Shown here: one piece after another, positions 3,933 through 37,408 of the stretch
Layout of the letters: each line of letters starts with the position of its first letter
Numbering within the stretch: the stretch's first letter is position 1
NCBI GenBank assembly: GCA_947624035.1
Contig: CANQIH010000002.1
Span: 1 to 40,937, forward strand
Length of the DNA: 40,937 nucleotides
DNA from: an uncultured Oscillospiraceae bacterium
Lineage (GTDB): Bacteria; Bacillota; Clostridia; Oscillospirales; Oscillospiraceae
Reading direction: 5' to 3'
Translations under genes and position numbers: made by a program
Notes under the pieces: model-generated
Seen by the model: only the letters and a program-made list of their open reading frames with translations
What the model was told of the DNA's origin: nothing
Database searches by the model: none

Positions 3933-4086
3933 ATTTGGCTGTGGAAAAGGGGACCGCGTCTCCGCGATCCCCCGGTCAGTTGAGCTTCGGCGGGCGTCGC
4001 ATCTCCCGCATCTCTCGGGTCTCCCCTGTCATGCCATCGGCGTGTGGTCGCAACGGAATTTACCACCTCGAAGCCCTTCTTATCCT
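3904..4086 (-). ncRNA. Candidate structured ncRNA of unknown family
   Basis: Minus-strand promoter TTTACA-17-TATAAT at 4093-4121; closing stem GGCUUCG/CGAAGCU; hairpins GGG-GAGA-CCC and GGGGAUCGCG-GAGA-CGCGGUCCCC; terminates at the 3904-3932 hairpin; no credible ORF. Confidence 0.55.
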
Positions 4087-5397: not shown

Positions 5398-5629
5398 CAA
5401 GCCGGCGGCCCCCTCTGACGAGGGGGCTGTCAGCCAACGAGGCCCCCACGTGGCACGCCTGCCGCGTGGGGAGAGGAGGCGCCGCGTTGTATTCGAGTCT
5501 TGCCGCTTGCGGCGAGGGGAGACCTACAACGCGTGTGCCGACGCGACTGGGGGAGAGACTTTAACAGCTTTAATATCTCTCCCTCCGTCTTGGCCTTGCG
5601 GCCAAGCCACCTCCCTCGTCAGAGGGAGG
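5398..5629. repeat. F1-c: composite F1-type arms enclosing an F2 unit
   Basis: ggccccctctgacgagggggctgtcagcc ... F2 5444-5543 ... gggagagactttaacagctttaatatctctccctccgtcttggccttgcggccaagccacctccctcgtcagagggaggc. Confidence 0.6.
5444..5543 (+). repeat. F2 copy A: double-hairpin repeat
   Basis: CCCCACGTGGCA-CGCC-TGCCGCGTGGGG, agaggagg, outer stem CGCGTTGTA/TACAACGCG around CTTGCCG-CTTG-CGGCGAG, ends ..CGACG. Confidence 0.75.
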
Positions 5630-14228: not shown

Positions 14229-14249
14229 GCCATAACGACTGCGGGCCCC

Positions 14250-14443
14250 TTTAGGCTGTCAAAGAAGGCTCTTTGCCAGCCTGAAAGCCGAGTATTTCCT
14301 GCCGTCAAAGACGTCATGAAATACTGCCGCTGCACGGCGCAAATGCCCGCATTTGCCGGCTTTTGATCCCATTTGAGGCGGGGCTCCGCCCCCCTCAAGC
14401 TCCCCCCGCATCGTCCAAGCATATGCGTGTTTTTTGACAAGCT
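14250..14443 (+). repeat. F3 copy A: structured ~190 bp 3'-UTR element
   Basis: Hairpin aggctgtcaaaga..tctttgccagcct; four-way-junction fold 14284-14363; flanked by exact 11-bp ctgcgggcccc at 14239-14249 and 14444-14454. Confidence 0.8.
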
Positions 14444-14489
14444 CTGCGGGCCCCGCTGGGAAGCGAGGCCCGCTCTTTGTATGCGAACT

Positions 14490-26012: not shown

Positions 26013-26084
26013 TAAAGCGAAATTTTTAGAATATATACAAAATAGCCGCCGGTTCCCCGGCGGCTTTCTGTAGGTTTGTCAAAA

Positions 26085-26269
26085 CCGGAACAGCCCAGAT
26101 GATGCAGGGGGAGCTTGAGGGGGGCGAAGCCCCGCCTCAAATAGGATGAAAAACCGGCAGGTACCTGAGTATCAGGTGCCTGCGCCGCGCAGCGGCAGTA
26201 TTTCATGACGGTCAGCCGGCAGGAAATACTCGGTTTTCAGGCTGTCAAAGAAAATTCTTTGACAGCCTG
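26085..26269 (-). repeat. F3 copy C: structured 3'-UTR element
   Basis: Four-way junction at 26150-26237 (minus); flanked by 41-bp terminator-containing direct repeats 26044-26084 and 26270-26310 (38/41 identical). Confidence 0.85.
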
Positions 26270-26317
26270 AGCCGCCGGTTTCACGGCGGCTTTTTGTAGG
26301 TTTGTCAAAAGCGGCTT

Positions 26318-30784: not shown

Positions 30785-30797
30785 GAAAGCATAGGAA

Positions 30798-30827
30798 AAG
30801 GGCCTGCCGCGGCTGCGGCAGGTCCTT
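30798..30827 (+). terminator. Left hairpin of the pair bracketing F3-B
   Basis: AAGGGCCTGCCGC GGCT GCGGCAGGTCCTT; no T-tract follows. Confidence 0.6.
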
Positions 30828-31026
30828 CAGGCTGTCAAAGAAGACTCTTTGACAGCCTGAGAAGCCGAGTATTTCCTGCCGTCAAAGCCGTCATGAAATA
30901 CTGCCGCTGCGCGGCGCAAATATACGAGTATTTGCCGGCTTTTGATCCCATTTGAGGCGGGGCTCCGCCCCCCCTCAAGCTCCCCCTGCATCATCCAAAC
31001 ATATGCGTGTTTTCTGACAAGATCGA
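30828..31026 (+). repeat. F3 copy B: structured 3'-UTR element
   Basis: caggctgtcaaaga-agac-tctttgacagcctg hairpin; four-way junction 30862-30941; between near-identical hairpins 30798-30827 and 31027-31055. Confidence 0.85.
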
Positions 31027-31055
31027 AAGGGCCTGCCGCGCTGCGGCAGGCCCTT
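31027..31055. terminator. Right hairpin of the pair bracketing F3-B (also 3' of the S9 peptidase gene)
   Basis: AAGGGCCTGCCGC GCT GCGGCAGGCCCTT. Confidence 0.7.
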
Positions 31056-36930: not shown

Positions 36931-36963
36931 GCGGAGGCTTGGGGTGGGCAGTCATCCTGGGGT

Positions 36964-37063
36964 CCCCACGCGGCACGCCTGCCGCGTGGGGAAAGGAGAA
37001 GCCGCGGAATATTCAGGCCTTGGCGCTCGCGGCAAGGCCTGACCTATGGAGCGTGCTTCGACG
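36964..37063 (+). repeat. F2 copy B
   Basis: CCCCACGCGGCA-CGCC-TGCCGCGTGGGG; CCTTGGCG-CTCG-CGGCAAGG; ends TTCGACG. Confidence 0.7.
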
Positions 37064-37070
37064 TCGGGGC

Positions 37071-37170
37071 CCCCAAAGGGCACGCTTGCCCTTTGGGGAG
37101 AGGAGGATCCGCGTTGTATTCGAGCTTTGGGGCTTGCCCCGAAGCGAGACCTACAACGCGCGATCCGACG
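37071..37170 (+). repeat. F2 copy C
   Basis: CCCCAAAGGGCA-CGCT-TGCCCTTTGGGG; CGCGTTGTA/TACAACGCG outer stem; CTTTGGGG-CTTG-CCCCGAAG; ends TCCGACG. Confidence 0.75.
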
Positions 37171-37408
37171 ACAAAACCGCCGGAGCTTGCGCTCCGGCGG
37201 CACCCGCCCTGCCGTGGGGACCCGATATGCAACCTGCACAGCTCGGCAGGTGGGTCACCTCGTGGCTGTTTCCGTGCTTCCAACTTCCAGAGCCGGTCTG
37301 TGCCGGTCCGGGAGGCCTGCGCTCCGCAGCCATATACGGCATCCCTTATAATAGATGTGGGTCCAACCGGGCCCTTTGCACCACGAACAGGGCAGGAAAA
37401 AAGTCCCG

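Follow-up and report, generated by a model that had tools for sequence, protein, structure and literature searches.

The length of the target duplication is variable in the IS1182 family. Group IIC introns and integron attC sites likewise rely on terminator hairpins as their targets or on a folded bottom strand as the substrate, and insertion of group IIC introns is not known to leave a target duplication. In Staphylococcus, the IS1182-family elements IS1272 and TnSha1 insert into terminator hairpins and delete part of them (PMC4923244). Wan et al. described the replacement of the stem-loop by IS1272 without duplication, and included in their model an untested branch in which the stem-loop would be duplicated if the joining took place at the 5' feet (PMC5678879). 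IS1182 insertions are also over-represented between convergent genes (PMC9208149). Short, intergenic, hairpin-rich and multi-copy MITEs are represented by QMITE2 in Coxiella, BrickBuilt in Porphyromonas and BOX, RUP and SPRITE in pneumococcus (PMC10969869, PMC4596501).

The repeat analysed here was found in a stretch of 40,937 nucleotides from an uncultured Oscillospiraceae bacterium (the window). It is very probably a non-autonomous IS1182-type MITE, mobilised in trans by a DDE transposase of the IS1182 family and usually duplicating its terminator target, because its terminal inverted repeats (TIRs) are nearly identical to those of IS1182 IS of the genus, it inserts into terminators and the target hairpin is duplicated. 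It resembles IS1272 and TnSha1 by the transposase family and by the choice of terminator hairpins without primary-sequence specificity (PMC4923244, PMC5678879), but it is a MITE of ~195 nt. Moreover, IS1272 removes all or part of its target stem-loop and does not duplicate it, whereas the element described here mostly duplicates the whole stem-loop: replacement of the IS1272 type was not what we observed, either in TIR-bearing copies or at L203, a complete IS of the same genus. It shares its short, multi-copy, hairpin-rich and intergenic character with the MITEs cited above, but these have short target duplications or none (7-9 bp for QMITE2) and other parent IS families, and duplication of a whole terminator is not reported for them. 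It differs from group IIC introns in having no intron domains. We found no paper in the open-licence literature on an IS1182 MITE with whole-terminator duplication.

Architecture of the element and its IS1182 relatives

An earlier note on copy B had described a four-way junction in a 3'-UTR repeat. The fold was right but the unit is larger than the interval then given, and the GGGCCTGCCGC hairpins that bound it are target duplications (Table 1). The junction makes up the core of a dispersed ~195-nt element without a transposase gene, of which the window's own assembly (2.11 Mb, 239 contigs, 75% complete) has about 30 copies. All copies fetched from this assembly with their flanks start near CAGGCTGTCAAAGAA, which forms a hairpin with an inverted copy of itself, and finish near TTTTTTGACAAGCTC, these two ends forming imperfect TIRs; a reversed-pattern control gave 0-1 match per genome. 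Between them lie, in this order after the left end, the junction core, a hairpin GAGGCGGGGCTCCGCCCCCCTC and CAAGCTCCCCC. The 3' module is the most conserved part of the family. Relatives were found in many Oscillospiraceae, including the window genus, Pseudoflavonifractor, Dysosmobacter, Oscillibacter, Intestinimonas and others. Their distribution is patchy: when 146 other genomes of the order were sampled, none matched the 3' module pattern, and the plasmids and phages searched gave no match. Compact copies made of the TIR hairpin and the 3' module without the junction core (L053, L154 and L062) indicate that the family is modular. In Pseudoflavonifractor, L185 (~4218), L186 (~3175) and L187 (~3328) carry a different element, in which a TIR hairpin of this kind, CAGCTTGTCGAAAAAGACTTTTTCGACAAGCTG, is combined with another interior, CACTTTTCAGAACGTTAAAACGTTCTGAAAAGTG. 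The window also contains a 6S / SsrS RNA, a skipping-rope RNA just downstream of mutS and a second dispersed repeat family of ~106 nt, of the CCCCACGTGGCACGCCTGCCGCGTGGGG type, whose three window copies are 75-80% alike, two of them in tandem.

Table 1. Positions in the window of the three copies, their parts and other features
Feature	Position	Strand	Basis or remark
Left target terminator hairpin, copy B	30797..30827		AAAGGGCCTGCCGC..GCGGCAGGTCCTT; matches 31026-31054
Left TIR hairpin, copy B	30828..30859	+	CAGGCTGTCAAAGAA-nnn-TTCTTTGACAGCCTG type; conserved left end of TIR-bearing copies
Four-way-junction core, copy B	30862..30941	+	Fold, z-score, cross-genome compensatory changes
Closing stem 5' arm, copy B	30862..30867	+	Pairs with 30936-30941
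Hairpin 1 (H1), copy B	30868..30902	+	Predicted fold
Hairpin 2 (H2), copy B	30903..30915	+	Predicted fold; inner pairs mostly mismatched in other genera
Hairpin 3 (H3), copy B	30916..30935	+	Predicted fold
Closing stem 3' arm, copy B	30936..30941	+	Predicted fold
Conserved 3' module GATCCCATTTGAGGCGGGGCTCCGCCCCCCCTCAAGCTCCCCC, copy B	30944..30986	+	Own hairpin 30952-30978
Right TIR, copy B	~31010..31024	+	TTTTCTGACAAGATC; consensus TTTTTTGACAAGCTC
Right target terminator hairpin, copy B	31026..31054		Matches 30797..30827
Copy A, whole element	14252..14444	+	Core 14285-14362
Copy C, whole element	26089..26269	-	Core 26150-26237
Target duplication, copy C	26044..26088 and 26270..26314		45-nt imperfect direct repeat, score 33
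6S / SsrS RNA	37197..37401	-	RF00013, 66.8 bits
Skipping-rope RNA	3982..4076	-	RF02924, 49.2 bits
Second repeat family	5438..5543, 36958..37063 and 37065..37170		

The complete IS at L203 is 1534 bp long and carries the TIR CAGTCTGTCAAAGAA at both ends. Its transposase (527 aa, with DUF772 and DDE_Tnp_1 domains) matches the IS1182-family model NF033551 with 406 bits against a cut-off of 270. The IS is flanked by duplicated GACACGCGAATGCGTGTCC, and hairpins also adjoin ten other IS ends of this type in the window's genus. The MITE TIR CAGGCTGTCAAAGAA is identical at 14 of 15 positions to CAGTCTGTCAAAGAA, which is found at L203 and at most other IS ends of the genus. A multi-copy IS could be traced from contig ends in Pseudoflavonifractor capillosus An827; its left end, CAGTCTGTCAAAAAACAAGC, adjoins terminator hairpins, and its ORF encodes an IS1182-type transposase. 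The L203 and An827 IS are like the MITE in their TIR, within one base over 15, in their insertion beside terminator hairpins and, at L203, in hairpin duplication; they differ from it in encoding a transposase and in their interior. Neither the core nor the 3' module was seen inside the fetched IS1182 copies, so that the ends alone are common to MITE and IS. The interior thus does not look like a deletion product of the parent IS, an origin that not every MITE needs to have. IS1202 and IS1634 had also been considered for the long duplications and were set aside after the IS1182 transposase match.

An IS1182-type transposase was found in 10 of the 35 same-genus genomes searched. As the window's own assembly, which is 75% complete, gave 0 matches, the mobilising enzyme may be missing from this assembly or lost. 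No TIR pairs 1-5 kb apart were detected in this assembly or in G012, G018 and G001.

Target duplications and terminator hairpins

Many copies are flanked on both sides by one site-specific hairpin. Copy B sits between two GGGCCTGCCGC..GCGGCAGG hairpins, the left one scoring as terminator-like on the minus strand only. At L007, a 38-nt TCACGCCGGATAAGATGCTGTAGGCATCTTATCCGGCA is found exactly repeated on either side of the element; the duplication of copy A is only 11 nt long (CTGCGGGCCCC, at 14239-14249 and 14444-14454) and several copies have no clear duplication. Duplications were scored on the copies of the window's assembly together with relatives from the genus and from other genera, and compared with controls in which left and right flanks were swapped between copies. 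A direct duplication with a score of at least 14 was present in 84 of 189 full-flank instances, compared to 2 of 373 swapped-flank controls. All 48 TIR-bearing copies with a strong duplication contained a strong palindrome inside it, and in 33 of these 48 both ends of the duplication fell within 3 nt of the stem base. The 8 nt that follow the hairpin contained on average more T after the right copy (4.3) than after the left (2.0), while the 8 nt that precede it contained more A before the left copy (3.9) than before the right (2.5). These contents fit a model in which the base of the stem is cleaved and the two tracts stay outside. The element lies more often between convergent genes (26) than between divergent ones (9), and its location in 3' untranslated regions follows from its insertion into terminators.

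The reading as a hairpin array in a 3' UTR, or as a free-standing RNA, was dropped once the flanking duplications appeared. The earlier suggestion of a structured RNA or 3'-end element found no support as far as a free-standing unit is meant: the repeat forms the inside of an IS1182-type MITE that has TIRs and duplicated targets. The other suggestion, a recombinase substrate, came nearest to the truth for the element as a whole, the enzyme being a transposase, but we saw no sign that the junction itself is the substrate. The search for an empty site gave no clean case: for copy B, orthologues of the gene downstream lie beside another neighbour, and at locus L091 of An184 the counterparts in An827 and G076 are without the element but their intergenic regions have diverged.

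A group of copies without the left TIR (L043, L046, L132 and, with some duplications in non-palindromic DNA, L036, L037, L039, L059 and L242) keep the core and the 3' module, start at the closing stem and vary in their 3' ends. They still carry direct duplications of 24-84 nt. The IS1182 MITE model leaves these copies and their duplications, some of them non-palindromic, unaccounted for; decay of IS1182 MITEs may have produced them, or they may have spread by another route. That the core and the 3' module are themselves the mobile structured element, spreading within IS1182 TIRs as well as in copies that lack a left TIR, seems to us very improbable; if true, it would point to a second, possibly RNA-mediated, dispersal route in bacteria.

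The branched core and its conservation

In copy B the closing stem AAGCCG/CGGCTT surrounds three back-to-back hairpins with zero unpaired junction bases: H1 with arms AGTATTTC/GAAATACT, H2 (GCCGC-TGC-GCGGC), then H3. The core folds with an MFE of -32.5, and none of 200 shuffles was equally good (z = -4.18). The same zero-linker four-way junction was obtained for copy A (z = -5.17) and copy C (z = -7.09), all z-scores being relative to dinucleotide shuffles, and the fold of the window copies was unchanged on the minus strand and with DNA energy parameters. The junction claimed earlier was thus reproduced in all three window copies (z from -4.2 to -7.1), and the paired changes quoted between them are present in the sequence.

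Other genomes were then compared by aligning 90 nonredundant cores with MAFFT on sequence only, from which RNAalifold recovered the junction. When the copy-A structure was placed on the 78 rows from other genomes, 71.8% of the cells were paired, compared to 27-51% when it was slid along the alignment. On a tree, 18 compensatory double changes were counted, against a mean of 1.4 with permuted partners (maximum 6 in 400 permutations). The RNAalifold consensus pairs of 115 sequences gave 33 doubles against 1.5 with permuted partners (maximum 6 in 100), this structure being derived from the same alignment, which makes the copy-A test the cleaner one. The 3' module had 12 compensatory doubles, and 6-8 fell in the closing stem, where ~70 nt with the three hairpins separate the two arms; the order closing stem, H1, H2, H3 is maintained across genera. 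As judged from these alignments, the branched fold of the core is kept by compensatory changes across genera, and the earlier proposal that paired substitutions preserve it was borne out on both the 78 rows and the tree. An R-scape-like G-test with APC and a branch-preserving null returned 0 significant pairs, with low power as few deep branches hold substitutions, and we therefore do not claim formal covariation significance. The absence of unpaired junction bases, in turn, is specific to the window species and does not extend to the family: among rows from other genomes, the junction-proximal closing pair forms in only 37%; for the two inner pairs of H2 the figures are 28% and 23%, with mostly T.C/C.T in their place. 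No Rfam 15 family reached its gathering score (best match 21 bits, gathering 58.8), in agreement with the earlier note, which did not recognise the repeat as a named family.

Alternative readings and proposed mechanism

A fold kept across genera could have a host function, and we considered that the core might be a structured RNA, either a 3'-UTR element or an sRNA, which the transposon ends carry along only incidentally. In favour of such an RNA, compensatory changes preserve the fold in several genera, and core and 3' module are also present in copies without a left TIR. However, the orientation of the element relative to genes is nearly random (19 codirectional versus 15), the distribution is patchy and no Rfam family matches. 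Wobble intermediates do not help either: a first set leaned towards the minus strand (G.U 8.5 versus A.C 24), but in the larger set the core had 19 G.U and 29 A.C and the module 7 G.U and 3 A.C, so that by these counts neither strand is clearly favoured. A host RNA is therefore, in our opinion, decidedly unlikely. The same lack of strand bias, and a fold equally good as DNA on both strands, would suit a core acting as a cruciform or as single-stranded DNA, which might be recognised by the hairpin-seeking transposase, attract it or assist end pairing. This transposase family does target hairpins (PMC4923244, PMC5678879), and tandem or adjacent insertions of the element exist, as at L162. On the other hand, L053 and L154 have no junction and still have TIRs and duplications, which indicates that the junction is not required for transposition; we retain a role of the folded DNA as a tentative possibility, on the less probable side.

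The complementarity of the arms could also be maintained by templated (quasi-palindrome) repair or template switching, in which case the covariation would carry no functional meaning. With 33 double changes against 48 single wobble-type intermediates, doubles are comparatively frequent, and the host also duplicates hairpins upon insertion, both of which are in line with such repair. Yet the compensatory doubles of the closing stem involve distant arms, and the order of the stem and hairpins is kept across genera, which makes this explanation unlikely.

For the IS1182-type MITE that we favour, we propose that the transposase would join the 3' ends of the element at the 5' feet of an extruded (cruciform) terminator hairpin, and that gap repair would then copy the stem-loop, as in the 'pathway b' that Wan et al. 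2017 put forward as a hypothesis. The upstream A-tract would stay with the left hairpin copy and the downstream T-tract with the right one. Both outward terminators would survive, and each of the two convergent neighbours would have the element in its 3' untranslated region, so that the insertion may be nearly harmless. The fold itself might be selected as a compact self-pairing nucleic acid, either a transcript in either direction or extruded DNA; a self-pairing core could make the element neutral for the host or preserve its capacity to transpose.

The tens of insertions in which a whole terminator hairpin is duplicated constitute a large natural data set for structure-directed transposition. 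They display an outcome that, in the IS1272 model of Wan et al., was no more than a hypothetical branch, and they make the cruciform-cleavage model testable. The element also supplies a conserved branched fold inside a MITE, and, with a terminator left on each side, it can be understood how an element of this kind may do almost no harm.
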